26,564 nt of DNA from the IMG/VR virus record IMGVR_UViG_3300031695_001027, positions 1-26,564 of that record. One strand, written 5' to 3'. The notes beneath the pieces were generated by a model. That model was given only the letters and a program-made list of their open reading frames with translations. It was not told the origin of the DNA and made no database searches. The position numbers were made by a program, and so were the translations under genes. Shown here one piece after another: positions 1-22,342 of the stretch. Positions within the stretch are counted from its first letter, which is position 1, and every line of letters begins with the position of its first letter. The stretch comes from a virus.

Positions 1-74
1 ACACAGGAAGCCTTACAGACCGAATATCATAATTGCCTCTATTGGTACCACGTTATGGTATACTAAATAAACCT

Positions 75-830
75 ATGATTATTAAAAAGATATTACTTTT
101 TTTAGTATTATTAAGTATCGGGTTAATTGCAAGAGCCGATGCTAATCCTGATTTATGGCCATATGTACAAGAAAGAATGTTTGGCGATAAGGTTATCACT
201 GAAGTAGAATTTCTTAAGATTGATGGTCCAAAAAGAGCATCTAGTGGCGCTCAAGTTCCAGTCAATATAATACTAACAAAAACTCCTAATATTAAAATAG
301 AAAAGATATTCCTAATCATCGATGGGAATCCTATTCAACACGCAGCTACATATCACCTTACAAATCAAACACAAAACTTAGACCTATCAACTCGCATTAG
401 AATGGAGACAGATTCTTTTGTTCATGTTGTTGCTGAAGATAGTAATGGTAAATTATATATGAATAAGATTGCTATAAGAGCATCAGGTGGTTGTAGTGGT
501 TATATGAATAGTCAAGACCCTGAGATGACTAAAGATTTAGGTAAAATTCTAATTAAATCTAAGAATAATTATATAACAACTCGTATCAAACATCCTAATT
601 TTACAGGACTACAAAAAGATTCAATTAATGGTTGGTATGTACCAGAATGGATTGTTAAACAAGTTCGTTACAATTTTAATGGTGAAATAGTATTAGTTGT
701 TGAGAATGGTATTAGTGTAAGTCAAGACCCATATATTAAATTTAACTTTTCTTCTGAACAGTCTGGAACAATGACAATCAAAGCTTCAGATACGAAAGGT
801 CAAATCTTCCTTAAAACTTTAGAACTCTAG
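75..830 (+). CDS. SoxYZ-like fused carrier protein, secreted
   Basis: A 251-aa protein that looks like a SoxY-SoxZ fusion of the kind called quinoprotein dehydrogenase-associated SoxYZ-like carrier. I start it at ATG 75, where an N-terminal signal peptide begins (IIKKILLFLVLL, cleavage near ADA); the longer frame from TTG 33 adds 14 residues ahead of the signal. Residues about 45-142 are SoxY-like and end in RASGGCSGY, matching the SoxY carrier-arm motif GGCGG with the cysteine at residue 140. The rest is SoxZ-like (TTRIKHPNFTG, KDSINGWYVP, VSQDPYIKF). In bacteria such carriers are periplasmic and sit beside PQQ alcohol dehydrogenases; the ligand carried here is unknown. No oxidoreductase is in the window, so it would act with host enzymes. 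It converges on gp32 with a shared terminator between. Family call fairly sure; role inferred. Confidence 0.8.
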   Translation: MIIKKILLFLVLLSIGLIARADANPDLWPYVQERMFGDKVITEVEFLKIDGPKRASSGAQVPVNIILTKTPNIKIEKIFLIIDGNPIQHAATYHLTNQTQNLDLSTRIRMETDSFVHVVAEDSNGKLYMNKIAIRASGGCSGYMNSQDPEMTKDLGKILIKSKNNYITTRIKHPNFTGLQKDSINGWYVPEWIVKQVRYNFNGEIVLVVENGISVSQDPYIKFNFSSEQSGTMTIKASDTKGQIFLKTLEL

Positions 831-5891: not shown

Positions 5892-6548
5892 TTATTCTAC
5901 TAATGGAGGCAAATCACCACTAAGTATTTGTAGTTCTTCTATCTTCTGCTCTTCAATCAAAGCAACACCTTCTTCTAATTCAGCAAAACGCTTTGAAGCA
6001 TTAAACTTTGTCATTAGTTTGGCATTCTTTCTTACTTCAGATAATATAAAAGCATTTGCACTATCTGGCGTATACTTTAGTTTAACATAAGCACGATAGC
6101 CGCCTTCACCAGAATGAACAATAGACATATTGGTTCTTTGAACGCCAATTAGATTAACTCGTGCTACAACTAATTTGGTAGTTCTATCTATCTCACGAAT
6201 AACAGTTGTGTCAAGGTCACCAACTTCTGTTGCATAATCCTTTAACATAGCATCAATGTGTGATGAGAAGTTTGAAGCAAGTTCACGCTTAGCAGACAAT
6301 GAAGCCTTATCTAATGCAAATTGCATATCTTTAGAATATTCTGAAGCTACTGCATAAAGATTTACATCATCATCTTCTAAATCTTCATTATACCATTCAG
6401 GATAAGCTACTTCAACACCAGGAGAGGCTTCAGCTTGTGGTGTGCTAGAGTCTATTTCAAATCCAGTATTGTATTTTAATGAACCACAACCTGTGGCAAA
6501 GGCTGATGCAATTAACATCGCAATCAGAGTTTTTTTATTCAATTTCAT
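5892..6548 (-). CDS. LPP20-family outer-membrane-type lipoprotein
   Basis: 218 aa. A lipoprotein signal ends SAFATGCGS, making Cys21 the lipidated residue. The mature part contains an LPP20-like domain (about residues 48-175: YPEWYNED, VNLYAVASEYSKDMQFALDKA, ASLSAKRELASNF, GGYRAYVKLKY). LPP20/FlgP-type lipoproteins are found beside CsgG-, FlgO- and FlgT-like envelope genes. A good ribosome site (AGAGGAAATACA) precedes the ATG, and the gene overlaps the DUF4384-like gene upstream by 4 nt (ATGA). The pair forms an envelope module in an operon led by an early promoter, unlike the csgG operon. A role with the phage CsgG pore is plausible but unproven. Confidence 0.75.
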   Translation of the reverse strand: MKLNKKTLIAMLIASAFATGCGSLKYNTGFEIDSSTPQAEASPGVEVAYPEWYNEDLEDDDVNLYAVASEYSKDMQFALDKASLSAKRELASNFSSHIDAMLKDYATEVGDLDTTVIREIDRTTKLVVARVNLIGVQRTNMSIVHSGEGGYRAYVKLKYTPDSANAFILSEVRKNAKLMTKFNASKRFAELEEGVALIEEQKIEELQILSGDLPPLVE

Positions 6549-7345
6549 ATTGTATTTCCTCTTTTCATAATATAAACATGATTATTAATCACCTTTCGCT
6601 TTTGAACCGGTACAGTATTCAATAAATTATCCATTTCTACTTTATTGTATTTTTGTTTGATATTATATTGCCTGTCATCATTCTCAATAAACAATACGGT
6701 TAAAAGTTCTTTAGACTGTAATTTATTTTGTGGTAAGTATGCTACTAATCTATTTTCTTTAGTAGATGGTAACATAAAATTACCTGGTGAGGTGGCAATC
6801 ATGCTACCATCGATTAAATGATATATGCCATCAATAAACAAGAAAGCTAAAACTAATCCTTGTTTGTTGGATGAACCAGAAATAACTACTTCATCACCTT
6901 CATTAAAATAAAACTCAGTACTATCCAATTTGAATTTAATTGGGTTCTCAATTGTTCCTACATCTGCACGAATAACTACTGTGCATTTATTATAACCTAG
7001 TGCTTTATTTGTTTGAATATTCTTTTCAATAATAGACTTGATGTAACCAGACGAATCTGATATAACATTTTTTTGTATATCGCACTTTGCTTCTTTGCAA
7101 CTTTCTATTGTAAAAGCACTTAACGATTCACCAGTAACTTCGAGAATAGCATTCTCTTTAGCGATTGATTCAGCCATTTTACAAGCATCTGATTCTGACG
7201 TATCAGGACCAAATTTATATTCACCTACTGCAGTCGTAACTGTACTTTCTTGTTTAATTAAGTTTTTTAATGCCTTAATCTCAAGATATTCCTCAGCGTT
7301 AGCGAACATAGATGCAATTAACAATGGTAATAAAAGTTTCTTCAT
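6545..7345 (-). CDS. Secreted DUF4384 / FlgT-like envelope protein
   Basis: 266 aa with a cleavable signal (MKKLLLPLLIASMFANAEE). The N-terminal half (about residues 45-140: DACKMAESIAKENAILEVTGE, then KCTVVIRADV) resembles FlgT/LPP20-type N-domains. The second half (about 145-225: VKLDSTEFYFNEGDEVVISG, LAFLFIDGIYHLI) resembles DUF4384, a beta domain often met beside CsgG-family pores. It is probably a periplasmic or outer-membrane accessory protein. It overlaps both neighbours (TAATG upstream, ATGA downstream), so all three genes are translationally coupled. Four cysteines in the N-domain may form disulfides. The domain assignment comes from pattern memory and needs a profile search. Confidence 0.65.
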   Translation of the reverse strand: MKKLLLPLLIASMFANAEEYLEIKALKNLIKQESTVTTAVGEYKFGPDTSESDACKMAESIAKENAILEVTGESLSAFTIESCKEAKCDIQKNVISDSSGYIKSIIEKNIQTNKALGYNKCTVVIRADVGTIENPIKFKLDSTEFYFNEGDEVVISGSSNKQGLVLAFLFIDGIYHLIDGSMIATSPGNFMLPSTKENRLVAYLPQNKLQSKELLTVLFIENDDRQYNIKQKYNKVEMDNLLNTVPVQKRKVINNHVYIMKRGNTI

Positions 7346-13012: not shown

Positions 13013-13291
13013 ATGGACTTTTTATTCTTAGTAACTGAAGTAGGTTTCCCAATAGCAGCTGCAATGGCTGCCGGGTATTTTGTATTTTTAACATTGAAGT
13101 TTATCCTATCAGATGTGACTTCAAATGTCAAGCGACTAAGTGGTATTATTACCGCATTAGACAATCGTGTAAAAACTATGAATCATGATGTAATTCGCAT
13201 AGACACTCTCATGTCGTCAGCGTTAGGCCTCAAACCAGATATAAATCGTATAGCTCGGGCTGACGGAAAGAATGACGCCAGAAAGGATTAA
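13013..13291 (+). CDS. Small 'GFPI' membrane protein (YvrJ/holin-like), copy 1
   Basis: 92 aa. One or two short membrane helices (about residues 5-32) carry the motif EVGFPIAAAMAAGYFVF, followed by an amphipathic helical tail (RLSGIITALDNRVKTMNHDV). The GFPI motif ahead of a single helix and a coiled tail resembles the YvrJ family and some holin-like phage proteins. The gene at 15000-15263 has the same layout (YGFPIIASFGLGYLIFY), so the two are likely paralogues bracketing this island. The ribosome site AAGAAGG is strong. Inner-membrane location is likely; holin activity is only a possibility. Confidence 0.68.
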   Translation: MDFLFLVTEVGFPIAAAMAAGYFVFLTLKFILSDVTSNVKRLSGIITALDNRVKTMNHDVIRIDTLMSSALGLKPDINRIARADGKNDARKD

Positions 13292-14861: not shown

Positions 14862-15007
14862 AACTTAATGAACTATATGACATAGCACTTTATTTTATTG
14901 TGTTGGTTTGTTTTTGGTTGAGTTTTCATAGTATAGATGATGAAACAAATCATATCACAATAACATTAGATACAATTGAAGTAACAGGTGAGGACGTTGA
15001 TGGATAA
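14858..15007 (+). CDS. 49-aa membrane peptide
   Basis: 49 aa: MKLNELYDIALYFIVLVCFW begins a single membrane segment (about residues 9-23), followed by an acidic tail (SIDDETNHITITLDTIEVTG). It overlaps the preceding 27-aa ORF (ATGA) and the following GFPI gene by 8 nt, so it fits an operon. It has no strong ribosome site and probably depends on coupling. Function unknown. Confidence 0.5.
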   Translation: MKLNELYDIALYFIVLVCFWLSFHSIDDETNHITITLDTIEVTGEDVDG

Positions 15008-15263
15008 TATAACAACAGTAATAGCAGACTATGGTTTTCCAATCATAGCTTCCTTTGGTCTTGGATATTTAATATTCTATATTTGGAAATGGGTAACAGG
15101 TGAAATTAATATTGTCATTGCTCAAGCAACCAAAACTCTAATAGAATTAATTGACCGTGTTCGTATGCTTGATAATGATTTAATACGACTCAATCAAAAA
15201 CTCAACACACTATTGCAAATACGAGAAGAAGAATCTCGCAAAAAAGGCCAAGATAAAGAATAG
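15000..15263 (+). CDS. Small 'GFPI' membrane protein (YvrJ/holin-like), copy 2
   Basis: 87 aa from ATG 15000, preceded by the ribosome site AGGTGAGG; the longer GTG start at 14988 is less likely. It shares with the 13013 protein the layout MD-x(8)-GFPI, a membrane segment (YGFPIIASFGLGYLIFYIWK), and an amphipathic tail (LIELIDRVRMLDNDLIRLNQ, compare NRVKTMNHDVIRIDTL). The tail ends in a charged run (REEESRKKGQDKE). It ends only 2 nt from the stop of the converging cyclase gene. A holin-like or membrane-scaffold role is possible. Confidence 0.68.
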   Translation: MDNITTVIADYGFPIIASFGLGYLIFYIWKWVTGEINIVIAQATKTLIELIDRVRMLDNDLIRLNQKLNTLLQIREEESRKKGQDKE

Positions 15264-15265
15264 TA

Positions 15266-17266
15266 TTATTTAGAAGTTAGTCTATACACTCCATCAAAAT
15301 CTTTTGGTTTTTCTTTATACAATCTTTGTACCATGTTATCATAATAATCAATAAGATTTATATTTTCATTTTTCAATTTCACTGTCATCAATATTGCAGT
15401 CTTCCACTCTCCAGAATAATAAGCTCTAAGAAACTTCTTGTGGCCAGATTCATCATCTAGTTCTGCAATCGTATAGACTTTAACACCAATAGTTTTACCT
15501 TTGACTGCAATCGTATCTAATTCTACAACTGGATAATATTCTTTAACCAATTCAGCAGTTCTAGGTCCTAATATAATTCTAACACCATAAGTTTTACTTT
15601 GACCTTCTAGTCTTGCAGCTAAATTAACTGCATCTCCTAAACAAGTGTAATCAAAACGCTGTGTGCTACCCATATTACCAACAACAACTTCACCTGTATT
15701 AATACCTAATCCCATTCCAAATGCAGGAATGTTTTCTTTCTCAATTTCTTTATTGAAGTTATCTAAGTCTCCTAACATTTCTATTGCAGCTTTAACTGAA
15801 TTCAATGCATGTTCTTTATCATCAAGTGGTGCATTCCAAAATGCCATTTGAGCATCACCAATATATTTGTCGAGTGTGCCATTGTAATCAATAATCTTAG
15901 CAGTCATCGCTGTCATATATCGATTCATGATTGAAGTGAGGCCTTGAACATCTTTACCATAGTGTTCAGATATCGTTGTGAATCCACGGACATCAGTAAA
16001 CATAATAGATAACTCTCTAGTTTCACCTCCCAATCTTAATAGTTCTGGATTCTTCTGTAACTTCTCAACAAGTGCTGGTGACAAGTAAGTTCCAAACTGT
16101 TTCTTTATAAGAAGTTTTTGATTGAGTTCTGAAACAAATTTAATAGTATAAGCAATTCCATATATCACACCTAATGAAACTATAGGATAAAAAGCGTCTA
16201 TTAATATCGCTTCTTTGGTAAATAGATGTACAGAGTAATAATATAAACTAACAATAATACCAATATTGAAAACAATTCCATATTTCCACCTTGTAAATAA
16301 GATTAGAATGATTGATAATAATAATATACTAATTAACTCGGCGCCAGTTGCCCAATCTGGTCGTGATATGTTTATCTGATTAGAAAGTGTTGCTATTAAT
16401 GAAGCTTGTGCATGATGTGGCCAAACTTCGCCAATGCTTGTTGATAAAGGATTAACTAAACCACTTGCAGTTACTCCAATAATTACTATCTCATTATTAA
16501 AGTTTTTTGGTAAGTTAGTTAAACTATGTTCAATTCCTTTTTGTTGCCAATCTATCCATACACGACCAATAGTATCTGTTTTTATTTTACCAAACTGTGG
16601 TATTCTAAGTGCTTGTATGCCTAGTTCATTAAACTTTATTTGAAAACTTGGGTCATTAGCAATGACTCTTAAAACTTCTAATGATAGATTTGGATATAAT
16701 GTGTCACCACTTGAAATGACCAGTGGCATTCTTCGTACAACACCATCAACTTCTGGAAATGTATTAACTATTCCAACACCAATTGCATTATCTTCTAATA
16801 ATTTTATATTAGCAATGATTCCAGGATAATCTACAGTTTTATTTTTACTGTCGCCAATTGACACTGCACCTGGATTTCTTGGTTCATTTTTAGTTTTGGC
16901 TGCACCTATATTTGGCAGAATAACAGGATAATCTTTTAGAGTTTTAGCAAACACTTTGTCTTGACCTAATCTGTCTGCTTCAGGCATCATTATATTCCAG
17001 ACAACCAAACCGGCGCCTCGATTATATAAGTCTTCTACTATTGTTGCATAAACATTACGACTAAAAGGAAATTGGCCATAGTCTTCGAGTGCTGATTCAT
17101 CAATATTAACTAAATGAATTCCATTAGTTGTTTCTACTTTTGATGAAATAAGGGTATCGAAATATCTAAGTCTTAATGATTCGACAAATGCTGGGTCTTC
17201 AACTCTTATAGGAATAATTATTAAAAGAAGTAGAAGTGCCCACCAAGGTGAGATTAGTTTTTTCAT
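15266..17266 (-). CDS. CHASE2-domain class III adenylate cyclase, membrane-bound
   Basis: 666 aa. An N-terminal membrane helix (8-20) leads into a CHASE2 periplasmic sensor (about 25-305; LRYFDTLISS, VNIDESALEDYGQFPFSR). Three membrane helices follow (about 308-325, 330-347, 355-376), then a class III cyclase domain (415-600). Catalytic residues look complete: metal Asp425 (FTDVRGFT) and Asp471 (DKYIGDAQMAFW), purine-selecting Lys467 with Thr541 (DYTCLGD), and transition-state Asn548 and Arg552 (NLAARLE). The Lys/Thr pair is the class IIIb adenylate type. It should make cAMP in the host cytoplasm under a periplasmic cue. I start at ATG 17266; the longer frame begins in the upstream gene. Last gene of the curli-type operon. 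FecR-CHASE2 cyclase neighbours occur in bacteria, so the pair may have been acquired together. Confidence 0.92.
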   Translation of the reverse strand: MKKLISPWWALLLLLIIIPIRVEDPAFVESLRLRYFDTLISSKVETTNGIHLVNIDESALEDYGQFPFSRNVYATIVEDLYNRGAGLVVWNIMMPEADRLGQDKVFAKTLKDYPVILPNIGAAKTKNEPRNPGAVSIGDSKNKTVDYPGIIANIKLLEDNAIGVGIVNTFPEVDGVVRRMPLVISSGDTLYPNLSLEVLRVIANDPSFQIKFNELGIQALRIPQFGKIKTDTIGRVWIDWQQKGIEHSLTNLPKNFNNEIVIIGVTASGLVNPLSTSIGEVWPHHAQASLIATLSNQINISRPDWATGAELISILLLSIILILFTRWKYGIVFNIGIIVSLYYYSVHLFTKEAILIDAFYPIVSLGVIYGIAYTIKFVSELNQKLLIKKQFGTYLSPALVEKLQKNPELLRLGGETRELSIMFTDVRGFTTISEHYGKDVQGLTSIMNRYMTAMTAKIIDYNGTLDKYIGDAQMAFWNAPLDDKEHALNSVKAAIEMLGDLDNFNKEIEKENIPAFGMGLGINTGEVVVGNMGSTQRFDYTCLGDAVNLAARLEGQSKTYGVRIILGPRTAELVKEYYPVVELDTIAVKGKTIGVKVYTIAELDDESGHKKFLRAYYSGEWKTAILMTVKLKNENINLIDYYDNMVQRLYKEKPKDFDGVYRLTSK

Positions 17267-17274
17267 ATATGTAT

Positions 17275-18732
17275 TTATTCTTGTGTTACTGAGACTGAAC
17301 ACCCACCAGCAGTGTAACAAGTTTGAGTTAGTGAATAACTTTGATTTGAATCACCTTGTTGTGTTAAATCTACAGTGCTTGATGCCGAACCAAAAGTTAA
17401 GTCAATGGTTGCATTGTGAGCTCCAGTTCCTTTTTGTAGAATGGTCACATCATGTGCATTACCATTTAATGTTATATCTGCAAATTTAGATGAGTTATGT
17501 TGTTGTGTAACATCTATTATATTGCTATTGCCAGTTACATCTACAAACAATCGTTTTTCGGATGCATCTTTCTGTAGAACATCAAAATTACTAGAATTAC
17601 CAGTCACATCTATATCTGCATAATGACCATGGTTGCCAGTATTTCTTTGTATTACTTCAATAGCATTTAAATTACCATCAACATTAAGTTTGATAATATG
17701 GTCACCTCTAGAAGTATTCTCTGTTCCGTCATCGTTTCTATCTTGAAAAAGGTCAAGGTCATTTGAATCGCCATCGAGCATTAATTCAATTAAATTAGGA
17801 GCCCACGAACTTGGCGAACCTTGTTTAATCAAAATATTATTACTATTGCCATCAATATCAGAACGCTCAACTCCTATTCCTCTTATGTGATTGCCGGTAC
17901 TTCCGTCTTGTAGAATATTAATTGTATTATTATTACCAGCTTGGTCTATGTAAACACTATTATCTGGATTAGACCCAGCACTTGCTGCCGTAGCTCTAGA
18001 AGAAGCGGTTGATATCTTTGATGTTTGTGTAGATGAAATACCAGAGCTTGTGCCAGTGGTTGTTGATGTTGATGTTGTGCTGAATACACCTTCCTCTTCA
18101 AGTGTTTCTCCAAAAAAGGTATACATTCTTGCTGAATAAGTTGTGTTAGTAGAATTAAATTGTACTTGGTCCATAGTGATAATTAATTTACCACCATTAC
18201 TACCATAACCATATACTGCCCAAGATTTCCAACCACTAAGGCCTGATGCTGTATTTGACGCTATTGCCGTACCACCCGATTGCATTGAAAAAAGATTTCT
18301 TGTTACCCAAGTATTTGAAACGGTATATTGAGAACCATTAGCGTGAGAAGTATAGTTTGCCTCACCATTGTACATTGTGATAGCACCTACACTTAATTTA
18401 CTTTCAACAAGCGATTCAATGCTAAGCGTTCTAGCGCCATCATGGTCACCATTACCAGCAATTAAAACTGTACCACCTGCACCAATGTAAGTTTCATATG
18501 CTGTCTTACAAGTACCACCACAATTGTTATTACCTGCTATGTTAATATGTAAATCTTTATTAGTAAAATGACTTAAAGTAACTGAACCACTATTTGTGCC
18601 TGAAACTGTAAACCCATGACCCTCTAGTTCACCTTTTAGTTTATTGTACATATTGGTGTCAGTATAATTTATATGAGCTGTTTCAGCAAATGCTGATGTA
18701 CAAAAAAAGAATACTAATAAAAATAGTCTCAT
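17275..18732 (-). CDS. Secreted curlin-repeat protein with novel N-terminal domain
   Basis: 485 aa, a putative exported fibre protein. The signal peptide is MRLFLLVFFFCTSAFA. Residues about 17-210 form a Rossmann-like domain (HINYTDTNMYNKLKGELEGH, GGTVLIAGNGDHDG) resembling glutamine-amidotransferase or ThuA-type folds without a clear catalytic triad. A Ser/Thr linker follows (219-253). Residues 257-470 are curlin-type repeats with spaced Asn/Gln (NSVYIDQAGNNNTINILQDG and similar units), as in CsgA and CsgB. The same unit starts the smaller curlin-repeat protein at 20114, so they are related. A disulfide is likely near the end (TCYTAGGCS). It would leave the cell through the phage CsgG pore; it might instead be a virion fibre. 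Its ATG overlaps the NqrM-like gene (ATGA). Confidence 0.8.
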   Translation of the reverse strand: MRLFLLVFFFCTSAFAETAHINYTDTNMYNKLKGELEGHGFTVSGTNSGSVTLSHFTNKDLHINIAGNNNCGGTCKTAYETYIGAGGTVLIAGNGDHDGARTLSIESLVESKLSVGAITMYNGEANYTSHANGSQYTVSNTWVTRNLFSMQSGGTAIASNTASGLSGWKSWAVYGYGSNGGKLIITMDQVQFNSTNTTYSARMYTFFGETLEEEGVFSTTSTSTTTGTSSGISSTQTSKISTASSRATAASAGSNPDNSVYIDQAGNNNTINILQDGSTGNHIRGIGVERSDIDGNSNNILIKQGSPSSWAPNLIELMLDGDSNDLDLFQDRNDDGTENTSRGDHIIKLNVDGNLNAIEVIQRNTGNHGHYADIDVTGNSSNFDVLQKDASEKRLFVDVTGNSNIIDVTQQHNSSKFADITLNGNAHDVTILQKGTGAHNATIDLTFGSASSTVDLTQQGDSNQSYSLTQTCYTAGGCSVSVTQE

Positions 18733-18881
18733 TTAATTACCTTATTACAAACAAGGCACTTGTCTGAACCATTTAATCCACCACAACTTCCTTTAATGTT
18801 TTTTCCCATTAACATAACGCCAAGTGACATTAGAGTTACTATTATGGATAAGATAATAAATGTTATTATAAATGTTGTCAT
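18729..18881 (-). CDS. NqrM-like small membrane protein (50 aa)
   Basis: A 50-aa ORF, too short for common cutoffs. It has a membrane helix (MTTFIITFIILSIIVTLMSL) followed by LGVMLMGKNIKGSCGGLNGS and DKCLVCNK. This fits NqrM (DUF539), which matures the iron centre of the Na+-translocating NADH:quinone oxidoreductase; the hallmark is a helix, then (I/P)KGSCGGLN, then CxxC. It has three cysteines (33, 42, 45); NqrM proteins usually have four. It starts within the FecR stop (TAATG) and ends within the next start (ATGA), so it is tightly coupled. No Nqr subunit is in the window. Confidence 0.75.
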   Translation of the reverse strand: MTTFIITFIILSIIVTLMSLGVMLMGKNIKGSCGGLNGSDKCLVCNKVIK

Positions 18882-19996
18882 TAGTTTTGTCGAGTAGTAA
18901 TTATAGTTGTGCCTTCTGAATTAACTCTATTTGTTATATCAATAACACCTTGTATCTGTCTGATTGTGGTCTCTTGTGTAGTTGGAACAATAATACAAGA
19001 AATGTCACTACCTGTGGTATCCATACAAAGTTCTACTGAAATAACATCTACAATAGCTGTAACACCTTGGTCAGGAATAAAATCTGGTAATAAATCAGAA
19101 CCAGTAGATACCGCTAATGTTTTTTCTTGTGATATTTTAAGTTGTAGATTTAAAGCATCTAAAATGTTTTGTAAGAAATTTCTATCTAATAAGTTATCTG
19201 ATAATCTATCAGTAAACAATTTAGCTTCTTCTTTATCTAATTCATTCTCTAACAACTCTTGGTCTAAATCATTAGTATCTAGTGTAGACACATTAGTTTT
19301 ACCAACTTCTTCTGATTCAATCTCTTTTGGTGGTCCAAGAATAAGAATGTTACTAATCATTTCTTCTGTCAAATCAACAATAATTGGTTTTGTTGGTTTA
19401 GCATCTAGATTAGGAACTCTTGTTGCTTGAAATGCCACATCCATGTGTACGATGCCACCTAAACTCTCAACATCAATAGCACCTGTTTTACAATCTGCTT
19501 CTATAGATGCCCAACCAAAAGGACAACTAGGCAATAGAATAACTGTAGTAGCACCAATCTCATCCACTGTTGCTGTAAAATCTGTACCACGAACTGTAAT
19601 TGTGGCAGTTGGAGTTTTAATTTTAACTGCTTGTGGTTTGTCTTTAGCGATTTGACCAGAAGCATATCGTGCCGTGCCAGCTGCAATTCTTATTGCTAAC
19701 TTACCTGCATCTTTATTCTTTGGTTCATATACAAAGTCATCAATTGTTAGTCTAGAACTTTCAGTCATCTGAACAATTGTATTATCTTCGAATGTAATTT
19801 CAGCTGTGCCTTGACCTGTTCTCAAAGCATCATTCATTTCTACACCAACACCTTTAGTTCCTACTATCTTTTCTTTATCTCTTGTAATAGAAAGTGGGTC
19901 ATGTTTTTGTTGTGTAATTGTTCCAATAAAACTCCATGCCATAGTTGGTATGAGAAGAAGTAATATTAAACTTTGTCTAATACTTCTATTTGCCAT
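18881..19996 (-). CDS. FecR-domain secreted protein
   Basis: 371 aa from ATG 19996; a TTG 21 nt upstream also fits the frame but the signal peptide begins at this ATG (SLILLLLIPTMAWS). The FecR domain spans about residues 45-150: VEMNDALRTGQGTAEITFED, then VKIKTPTATITVRGTDFTAT, the classic FecR core. A long acidic, partly disordered region follows (STLDTNDLDQELLENELDKE), then a C-terminal part with two cysteines. This is a free periplasmic FecR-type protein, not a sigma-factor anchor, as it has no TonB or sigma partner nearby. It lies in the curli-type operon two genes before the CHASE2 cyclase; a role in sensing or assembling the exported protein is likely but unproven. Confidence 0.85.
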   Translation of the reverse strand: MANRSIRQSLILLLLIPTMAWSFIGTITQQKHDPLSITRDKEKIVGTKGVGVEMNDALRTGQGTAEITFEDNTIVQMTESSRLTIDDFVYEPKNKDAGKLAIRIAAGTARYASGQIAKDKPQAVKIKTPTATITVRGTDFTATVDEIGATTVILLPSCPFGWASIEADCKTGAIDVESLGGIVHMDVAFQATRVPNLDAKPTKPIIVDLTEEMISNILILGPPKEIESEEVGKTNVSTLDTNDLDQELLENELDKEEAKLFTDRLSDNLLDRNFLQNILDALNLQLKISQEKTLAVSTGSDLLPDFIPDQGVTAIVDVISVELCMDTTGSDISCIIVPTTQETTIRQIQGVIDITNRVNSEGTTIITTRQN

Positions 19997-20121
19997 AATT
20001 TTGTATAAGTAGCCCAATTGGTTGAATCTAAATCTTCAATGTGTAGATTGTGTTCTTTGATAAGCCAGTTATTAAATGGCACAATATTTTCAAGTTCTTT
20101 TAGACTATATTTCTTAGTCAT
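19966..20121 (-). CDS. Small 51-aa soluble protein overlapping FecR start
   Basis: 51 aa beginning MTKKYSLKELENIVPFNNWL, with two later tryptophans (STNWATYTKLWQ). It starts 8 nt before the end of the curlin-repeat gene and its 3' end overlaps the FecR gene by 31 nt in another frame. It fills a gap of nearly 100 nt that would otherwise break an unbroken chain of coupled genes. No ribosome site of note (the region reads AATAAGCC) and no family recognised. Cytoplasmic, as no signal is present. Confidence 0.52.
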   Translation of the reverse strand: MTKKYSLKELENIVPFNNWLIKEHNLHIEDLDSTNWATYTKLWQIEVLDKV

Positions 20122-20887
20122 CTTGGCTTATTACCCAAGTATTACTATTTCCTGTTATGTTCACATCGATATCATTATCTTGGCTACCAGCTTGTGTTGA
20201 TGTCCAAGCATTACTTGAACCGATTATATCTAAATCATAGTTATGTCCAGCGGAACCACCATTGCCAGATTGAGTTGCTGTTATTACATTACTAGCACCT
20301 TGTGCTGTCAAGTTAAAGGTTGCTGAATCTGTTCCTAAAGTAGCTGTTACTTTATTACCTCCACCACCACTAATTGCAGTAGCAACTGCTATTGTGTCAC
20401 CATCAATTGTATATGTAAGGTCATTGTAAGTACCACCAGTTGTGGTTGCTGTCAAAGTATTTCCTGTGCCTAATAAATCAAATATTAAATCTGAGTAATT
20501 ACCAACTTGCCTAATATCAATAACATTATTAGCTGCAGTTCCATTACCATCGCCATTAATGTCTATACTCGCAACTGAGTTTGAACCTGTGATGTAGTAT
20601 TTTAAGTTGACACCAACAGAAGATGCTACTGATGTGTTCATATCAATCTTTAGAATATTAGCACCACCGATTTGTTTTATGTCTACTGTCTGGCTACTAC
20701 CAGTAAATAGTGCAGCTGTGCCTTCTGAATCTCCTACACCGAATAGTTTATTGGCTGCACCGTCCTGCAACACATTAATTGTTGAACTACTACCAACTTG
20801 AGTTATATAGATACTATTGTCAGCTGCATGAGCAACTGAAAGCACCATCACAAGTAACATAATGAAATATGTTTTTATTGTAGTCAT
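20114..20887 (-). CDS. Secreted curlin-repeat (CsgA/B-like) protein
   Basis: 257 aa with a signal peptide (LLVMVLSVAHA, cleaved before ADN). Directly after it comes the curlin-type unit NSIYITQVGSSSTINVLQDG, shared with the larger protein at 17275, then less regular repeats with spaced Asn and Gln (NVIDIRQVGNYSDLIF, NVITATQSGNGG, NAWTSTQAGSQDNDIDVNIT, NTWVISQDD). The composition (Gly/Ser/Thr/Asn, no Cys) fits an amyloid-forming exported subunit. It immediately follows csgG (TAAATG) and so is the expected client of that pore. It might instead coat the virion or cell. A true CsgA/CsgB assignment cannot be made. Confidence 0.82.
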   Translation of the reverse strand: MTTIKTYFIMLLVMVLSVAHAADNSIYITQVGSSSTINVLQDGAANKLFGVGDSEGTAALFTGSSQTVDIKQIGGANILKIDMNTSVASSVGVNLKYYITGSNSVASIDINGDGNGTAANNVIDIRQVGNYSDLIFDLLGTGNTLTATTTGGTYNDLTYTIDGDTIAVATAISGGGGNKVTATLGTDSATFNLTAQGASNVITATQSGNGGSAGHNYDLDIIGSSNAWTSTQAGSQDNDIDVNITGNSNTWVISQDD

Positions 20888-21781
20888 TTAATTTCCTTGT
20901 CCAAATGTTGTATTTAAAACTGGTTCTACTTCCTCTATAATATCAATATATTCTGATGTTGGTTTAAGTGGTGTTATTTCAACTTCACTAATCACCTCTT
21001 CTTTAAAATCCCACACATCAGTTCTTTCGCCTTCTTTTATTAATTCTACTACCGCAGCTTCAATAGCTGACTTTACTGCCAAACTTCCTGGTTCATTTAA
21101 AGTTAAGCCAGATTCAAACTCAAACACTTGTGTGCCTTTATCATAAAACTTTAGTATTGCTAAGCTATCTGCAGTTGAGTAAATTGTTTTCTGAACATTG
21201 ACTGCAGCTATAACCAAACCTGTATTAACACTTATAGCTCTCAAACTTACTGTAATGATATCTTCACTAAACTTTGTTGATGGTCCTATTCCTAATATTC
21301 TAGCGGCACTTCCTCCACTTCTCACTGATGTATCATAACCAGTAATACCACCTTCAATAATCATACCAGCGAATCGCATTGGTTGTAATTTCTTGGCATC
21401 AGCTCCTTCATATGCTTCTCGCATCTGTCGAACTATCTGTCTTTCTTGTGTAAGACTCGCAAGACCAACTCTTTCTACTACATCAAACCAACCAGCATTA
21501 CCCACATCTCTTAACGCTTTAATTAAAAAGGCTTCAGCGCCTTGTGTTACTGCCGTACTGAAACTCGATTGTGTCGAACTAGGTCTTCTTTGACCTGTTT
21601 GGTCTTTAAAACTATAAACAGCAACAGATACTTTGCCCATCATTGGTTTTGGTATAGTATCAAATTCTTTATATGTAGAGTTCTTTACAGCCATAGGAGG
21701 TTCATACTCTCCTTTAATTGCTTGAGATGTAGCACAGCCAGTTAAGATGGATAATACCATCAATAATAAAAGTAGTTTCAT
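20888..21781 (-). CDS. csgG: CsgG, curli secretion outer-membrane pore lipoprotein
   Basis: 297 aa (E. coli CsgG 277). The lipoprotein signal ends ILTGC, Cys16. CsgG landmarks follow: KVSVAVYSFKDQTGQRRPSS, FSTAVTQGAEAFLIKALRD, WFDVVERVGLASLTQERQIV, MIIEGGITGYDTSVRSGGSA, ARILGIG and TVSLRAISVNTGLVIAAVNV. CsgG forms a nonameric outer-membrane channel that exports curlins. The constriction loop differs: where E. coli has Tyr51 and Asn55, this protein appears to have Ser; Phe56 is kept. A C-terminal acidic extension (EEVISEVEITPLK and after) is longer than in E. coli. It begins one base after the csgF stop. Confidence 0.95.
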   Translation of the reverse strand: MKLLLLLMVLSILTGCATSQAIKGEYEPPMAVKNSTYKEFDTIPKPMMGKVSVAVYSFKDQTGQRRPSSTQSSFSTAVTQGAEAFLIKALRDVGNAGWFDVVERVGLASLTQERQIVRQMREAYEGADAKKLQPMRFAGMIIEGGITGYDTSVRSGGSAARILGIGPSTKFSEDIITVSLRAISVNTGLVIAAVNVQKTIYSTADSLAILKFYDKGTQVFEFESGLTLNEPGSLAVKSAIEAAVVELIKEGERTDVWDFKEEVISEVEITPLKPTSEYIDIIEEVEPVLNTTFGQGN

Positions 21782-21782
21782 A

Positions 21783-22232
21783 TTAAAAAGTAAAGTCGCC
21801 TAATGGTATTGCAATGCTTGTTGTTGTGCCTACCACATCAATAACACTTAAGTTAATCTGACTTGATGTTTTAGCCCAATTGATAATGTTACCTTCAAAG
21901 TTTAATGTGCCTGATGTAGGTGATGACGAATCATCTGTAAACATCGCAGTAGCTAAATCTTGTGATATCTGTGCATAAATTCTAGATTCTAAATTACTCA
22001 TAAATTTAGCAATATTGGTACTACCTTTTTGTCTAGCAGCTTCTTTTAATTGTGATTCGAGTTTATCTGCAATTGCCTTTTTACGAGAATGTTCTTGATT
22101 CTCTATTGTCAAGACATGTCCAGAATATCCATTACCATTAAAGGCAGGACTTTTAAACTCAAAATCATTTTGGGGTTGTGAGGTCGCATTAATTGACCAC
22201 AGAAAAACACCCATATAAATTAGTTTATTCAT
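21783..22232 (-). CDS. csgF: CsgF, curli assembly/nucleation accessory protein
   Basis: 149 aa (E. coli CsgF 138). A signal peptide (LIYMGVFLWSINATS) is followed by NDFEFKSPAFNGNGYSGHVL, matching the N-terminus of CsgF (FQFRNPNFGGNP in E. coli), the part that plugs into the CsgG channel. The next helix has SRIYAQISQDLATAMF, comparable to the CsgF middle segment ending near GG. CsgF joins the pore at the outer membrane and helps curlin nucleation. It is the first gene of the operon; a late-promoter motif lies about 80 nt upstream. No csgE or csgD is in the window. The csgF-csgG pair agrees with reports I recall from marine myophages. Confidence 0.88.
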   Translation of the reverse strand: MNKLIYMGVFLWSINATSQPQNDFEFKSPAFNGNGYSGHVLTIENQEHSRKKAIADKLESQLKEAARQKGSTNIAKFMSNLESRIYAQISQDLATAMFTDDSSSPTSGTLNFEGNIINWAKTSSQINLSVIDVVGTTTSIAIPLGDFTF

Positions 22233-22306: not shown

Positions 22307-22342
22307 CAGTATTTATCCAGGAGAATCCTGTTTTTTATACTG
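22307..22342 (+). terminator. Imperfect hairpin with a plus-strand U-run
   Basis: Outer stem CAGTAT/ATACTG (22307-22312 with 22337-22342) and inner stem CAGGA/TCCTG (22318-22322 with 22326-22330, loop GAA) separated by an internal loop that includes TTTTTT (22331-22336). On the plus strand the inner hairpin and the T-run look like a terminator, but both flanking genes are on the minus strand. It lies between the rpsU stop and csgF, so it may separate those transcripts as a structure. Confidence 0.4.
22310..22317 (-). promoter_or_regulatory. Candidate late promoter for the csgF-cyclase operon
   Basis: Minus strand reads GATAAATA (NATAAATA), 78 nt before the csgF start, in the only non-coding gap upstream of the eight-gene operon. 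It overlaps the hairpin at 22307-22342. No GCTTGAC-type early promoter occurs in this gap, which supports late timing for the operon. Confidence 0.55.

Follow-up and report, generated by a model that had tools for sequence, protein, structure and literature searches.

The window analyzed here, a virus fragment of 26,564 bases (IMG/VR record IMGVR_UViG_3300031695_001027), carries a gene for a 666-amino-acid adenylate cyclase at the end of a six-gene curli-type operon. We consider it reasonably probable that the product is an active, membrane-bound, homodimeric adenylate cyclase of the class IIIb type and that it serves as the cytoplasmic output of a phage curli-type secretion module; its most likely role would be cAMP signaling coupled to fiber secretion. 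A 2020 paper reported curli genes in pelagimyophages (PMC7029224), and a report of such genes in the methylophage Melnitz followed in 2022 (PMC9004378). Also in 2022, a curli (type VIII secretion) module with FecR and an adenylate cyclase was described from pelagiphages belonging to two families (PMC9599517). The window is a further example of this known ocean-phage module, with the catalytic machinery of the cyclase fully conserved.

A CHASE2-class III adenylate cyclase in a T4-type phage fragment

The cyclase gene lies on the minus strand, with its ATG at 17266 and its stop codon at 15266-15268. The containing open frame spans 15266-17320 (-), and the start at 17266 was chosen on homology support; the plus strand over 15266-17266 is full of stops. 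The protein combines CHASE2 (residues 13-322, E = 9.6e-35), membrane helices, and Guanylate_cyc (residues 417-600, E = 6.1e-19) in this order, both domains scoring well over the curated Pfam cut-offs, and its assignment as a CHASE2-class III adenylate cyclase also draws on catalytic residues, an AlphaFold2 model, Foldseek, and hydropathy. The original prediction of a complete CHASE2 sensor is borne out. The three membrane helices that it listed correspond to those after CHASE2 (306-324, 330-352, and 359-about 380), whereas hydropathy and the model give four overall, including one at 7-23 ahead of CHASE2. On this helix layout, in which hydropathy and model agree, CHASE2 would be periplasmic and the cyclase domain cytoplasmic. 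Because a second contig (L002) encodes an identical 666-amino-acid protein and dN/dS is 0.07-0.22 in comparable related pairs, a sign of strong purifying selection, the reading frame is no assembly accident.

The window also contains the T4-type replication genes for gp32, a helicase loader, and PD-(D/E)XK and RNase H-type exonucleases, and its gp32 shares 54-56% identity with the gp32 proteins of HTVC008M and of cyanomyophages; the gene had therefore been attributed to a phage correctly. At 33-830 (+), a SoxY-SoxZ fusion matches NCBIfam TIGR04557, “quinoprotein dehydrogenase-associated SoxYZ-like carrier,” with 226 bits (cut-off, 140), and stays under the NCBIfam cut-offs for true thiosulfate SoxY and SoxZ. 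Phage “soxYZ” genes have been counted as sulfur-oxidation genes (PMC8190135), and part of them may be this quinoprotein dehydrogenase-associated carrier. By its family name, the carrier hints at a methylotroph-like host with a quinoprotein (e.g., methanol) dehydrogenase; a search for an annotated phage relative with SoxYZ as the key found none. A SoxYZ-like gene accompanies the cyclase on the 72-kb contig L060 as well, where CsgG lies about 14 kb from the cyclase. At 5892-7345 (-), two neighboring genes encode exported proteins, one of which is likely to be a lipoprotein; the pair is conserved in L002 and L003 and has no match in Pfam, PHROG, or NCBIfam.

Organization of the curli-type operon

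Six genes on the same strand follow the order csgF-csgG-curlin-fecR-curlin-cyclase. The curli assembly factor CsgF (21783-22232, -) matches PF10614 with an E value of 4.5e-12, and the outer-membrane secretion pore lipoprotein CsgG (20888-21781, -), which has the lipobox LTGC, matches PF03783 with an E value of 2.4e-46; both are over the cut-off. Against the NCBIfam CsgG model, CsgG scores an E value of 5.8e-51, which is under that model's cut-off. The FecR-domain protein (18881-19996, -) matches FecR (E = 2.2e-12) and phrog_37870 (E = 1.7e-103); its frame opens with a TTG at 20017, and the ATG at 19996 is the likelier start.

The two curlin genes are weakly assigned, by low profile scores together with their positions in Melnitz and HTVC008M. 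The first (20114-20887, -; 257 amino acids) encodes a putative curlin-like repeat protein with a weak CsgA match (E = 7.5e-4) and no Pfam match, and it occupies the place of the annotated curlin proteins in both of these phages. The second (17275-18732, -; 485 amino acids), directly upstream of the cyclase, encodes a putative curlin-repeat protein that matches Curlin_rpt just under the curated cut-off (E = 8e-4) and CsgB weakly, and its place is that of the Melnitz “curlin associated repeat protein.” Adjacent csgF, csgG, and curlin-repeat genes, followed by FecR and an adenylate cyclase, make up the module described in pelagiphages. All five products encoded upstream of the cyclase begin in a signal peptide-like (both curlins and FecR among them) or lipoprotein-like manner, and only 8 bases separate the stop of the second curlin gene from the cyclase ATG. 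An Rfam search of the window found no known RNA element near the operon.

The motif ATAAATA occurs nine times in the window (at 1894, 3788, 5406, 12958, 12976, 17272, 22310, 25708, and 14767). All nine copies are oriented as the genes that follow them, eight precede a gene start by 6-81 nt, and eight fall outside the listed genes, though genes cover 92% of the window; they look like T4-type late promoters. The copy at 22310-22316 (-), placed by motif scan and position 78 nt upstream of csgF, is a possible element of this type and hints at late expression of the operon. This hint is no proof, because the intergenic gaps are AT-rich and only 8 of 52 relatives have the motif ahead of csgF. Matches to sigma-70 promoters did not exceed their frequency in shuffled sequences. 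Another copy, at 17272-17278 (-), overlaps the curlin stop codon, and its end is 6 nt from the cyclase ATG; a late transcript from this element would begin nearly at that ATG. Similar motifs are found 11-22 nt upstream of the cyclase in L003, L004, L005, L007, L060, and L067.

Catalytic site and predicted activity

The two metal-binding aspartates (D425 and D471), the substrate residues K467 and T541, and the transition-state residues N548 and R552 are all present at exactly the positions first proposed, and they align with those of solved class III cyclases, e.g., Pseudomonas aeruginosa CyaB (3r5g). Of 86 copies, the window included, 81 retain all six. In Melnitz and in the phage copies from a Rhodobacteraceae bin, T541 is replaced by D and N548 by S, which may mean that some relatives can do without activity; the HTVC008M cyclase has S at 541. 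Because of these departures, the phages isolated earlier do not provide the best enzymes for testing.

An AlphaFold2 model of the monomer, for which 41 window and viral sequences were used, reaches a mean pLDDT of 86.4 and a pTM of 0.63, the latter leaving the relative placement of the domains uncertain. Its catalytic part superposes on CyaC (1wc1) and CyaB with TM scores of 0.80-0.86, normalized to the target (Foldseek). These proteins have the catalytic fold and residues in common with the window cyclase, while their structures comprise catalytic domains without CHASE2 and the membrane part and are about 30% identical to it. Given the phage context, the intact CHASE2 and class III domains, and the presence of all catalytic residues, the window enzyme is likely to be active, and the fold model and the purifying selection support this prediction. 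The expected product would be cAMP, since K467 is an ATP/adenine-type residue and the guanylyl cyclase Cya2 carries glutamate at this position.

Spread and linkage of the module among phages

Sensor-bearing adenylate cyclases had been thought rare in phages. This view does not hold, as IMG/VR contains at least 598 loci with a relative of the cyclase, the gene is annotated in two isolated phages, Melnitz and HTVC008M, and the module was published in 2022 (PMC9599517). A T4-type major capsid protein is encoded in 12 of the 32 larger records with a relative, on contigs of 69 to 337 kb. Of the 46 viral loci in which the upstream flank of the cyclase measures 7.5 kb or more, 43 have csgF, csgG, fecR, and curlin genes nearby; in one of the remaining three, CsgG lies farther off on the same contig. 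In some viral contigs (e.g., L013, L044, L058, and L075), the cyclase and the csg genes have opposite orientations, so strict cotranscription with these genes is not universal.

The isolated phages share the arrangement of the window and differ in the enzyme. T4-like HTVC008M has the same csgF-csgG-curlin-fecR-curlin-cyclase order, and its cyclase is 37-38% identical to that of the window, which keeps the Thr541/Asn548 pair. Melnitz, a Methylophilales phage (cyclase QZI95054; PMC9004378), also has the six-gene order and the domain architecture of the window, whereas its cyclase is 37% identical and carries the two substitutions given above. Podophage modules (PMC9599517) always include a histidine kinase; none was identified beside the window module, without a targeted search.

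A phage-encoded cAMP receptor was considered and rejected, as the cNMP-binding domain (PF00027) is absent from 36 viral records; this is weak evidence, because many of these records are fragments. Without a receptor in the phage records, any cAMP would have to act through the host.

Two contigs of Rhodobacteraceae bacterium Water_Bin34 (G035), L084 and L085, carry the phage curli-cyclase module and seem to be phage sequences that were sorted into a bacterial bin. L084 also encodes small phage membrane proteins like those at 13013-13291 and 14988-15263 in the window.

Bacterial relatives of the FecR/CHASE2-cyclase pair

Bacterial curli operons do not include FecR, the histidine kinase, or the cyclase (PMC9599517), and a FecR/CHASE2-cyclase/TPR/phosphodiesterase cluster has been described in Campylobacterota (PMC9239204). 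We sampled 399 Pseudomonadota genomes, and plasmids in addition, picked by similarity to the window. FecR adjoins the cyclase in 17 of the 22 bacterial loci nearest in sequence, while CsgG, CsgF, or curlin does so in none of these 22. Conversely, neither FecR nor such a cyclase was found near bacterial CsgF/CsgG in any of 20 loci, with roughly 7-8 kb scanned on each side and less at contig ends. The bacterial pairs (Rhizobiaceae, Paracoccus, and Campylobacterota) place the CHASE2-cyclase beside FecR as the window does, whereas their other neighbors are NHLP/ABC export, TPR, large FecR-containing, and sometimes cNMP-binding proteins. In the bacterial loci L119-L128, the FecR beside the cyclase often lies inside a very large open frame of 4-8 kb, suggesting that bacterial FecR is fused to big surface or secreted proteins.

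A phylogeny had been proposed as a way to find the donor lineage. In a quick tree of full-length sequences, with the bacteria chosen by similarity, 36 phage sequences stand on one side of a branch and 32 bacterial sequences on the other (SH-aLRT, 100), so the phage copies are set apart from every sampled bacterial copy, and the single phage side points to an origin shared with the pelagiphage cyclases; no recent donor can be named. A recent bacterial donor was sought in a scan of 84,980 species and rejected, the one match being the phage contig in the Rhodobacteraceae bin, and none of the bacterial copies in the 399 Pseudomonadota genomes exceeds about 45% local identity. The union of the FecR/CHASE2-cyclase pair with curli is specific to phages in this sample. 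Given 43 of 46 viral loci versus 17/22, 0/22, and 0/20 in bacteria, the pair appears to be an older bacterial unit that was joined to curli secretion in phages, a combination made, or at least kept, by phages.

Proposed role and alternative explanations

Taken together, the gene neighborhood, the exported FecR-domain protein, and the predicted periplasmic CHASE2 suggest a cyclase that informs the cytoplasm about some state of the envelope or of curli secretion. Late in infection, csgF, csgG, the two curlin-like genes, fecR, and the cyclase gene would be expressed as one operon, and CsgG and CsgF would form an outer-membrane pore through which the curlin-like proteins pass. The exported FecR-domain protein, which by its neighborhood alone may be coupled to CHASE2, would report the envelope or secretion state to this periplasmic domain and so change cyclase activity. 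The cAMP produced would act on the host's own CRP-type receptor, a target proposed because no receptor gene was seen in the phage records, presumably to the benefit of the phage.

The original prediction suggested that cAMP could rewire the carbon metabolism of a host with few regulators. This is unsupported as worded: the prediction overlooked that the cyclase gene closes a curli secretion module which also contains FecR, a position that points to signaling coupled to the secretion of cell-surface fibers. By way of the host cAMP receptor, the enzyme may nevertheless affect metabolism. In its strict form, this metabolic explanation casts the cyclase as an auxiliary metabolic gene whose product increases host cAMP and redirects carbon metabolism via CRP, with incidental curli neighbors. 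The intact catalytic set agrees with it, as do the need for host targets that follows from the missing phage receptor and the distance between the cyclase and CsgG in L060, which indicates that the genes are separable. We nevertheless find it improbable in view of the linkage with the whole csg/FecR set in 43 of 46 loci and the gene order common to distant phages; moreover, a constitutive metabolic effect would need no periplasmic sensor. Somewhat better placed, though on balance doubtful, is the idea that the fibers or the pore serve cell aggregation, superinfection exclusion, or lysis timing, as proposed for the phage curli module (PMC7029224, PMC9599517, and PMC9004378), and that the cyclase merely adjusts the host transcription needed for this. 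CsgG and CsgF are indeed present, but no cAMP target is known, and Melnitz gave no clumping and its genome was reported to be without fiber genes (PMC9004378). This idea overlaps our preferred reading, a cyclase that signals on behalf of the secretion module, and differs from it mainly in the direction of signaling.

Two further explanations have very little in their favor. One is that the enzyme makes cGMP, cCMP, or cUMP or belongs to a defense-like Pycsar system, in favor of which the catalytic domain is matched by PycC models of PADLOC (best E = 1.7e-26); these models, however, cover only the general class III domain (residues 415-555), and Lys467/Thr541 is the adenylate-type pair. A Pycsar defense composed of PycC and an effector was rejected, as none of the five csg/FecR neighbors matches any PADLOC model. 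It is equally hard to credit that the cyclase is an inactive relic or a scaffold hitchhiking with the curli genes: the changes of T541 and N548 in Melnitz-type relatives would fit this, whereas the retention of all six residues in nearly all copies and the low dN/dS values speak against it.

We also propose, tentatively, that the module is a phage-built composite unknown from bacteria, in which an envelope-sensing FecR/CHASE2 cyclase reports curli secretion to the host cytoplasm and which has spread in T4-type phages, jumbo phages included. If so, the phage would control host cAMP by the state of a surface structure of its own making. Several uses have been proposed for the phage curli module, but so far no mechanism has been put to the test. 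A fully conserved cyclase at its end, with a sensor in the periplasm and without a receptor of its own would offer a measurable handle on this module, namely, the cAMP level of infected cells.
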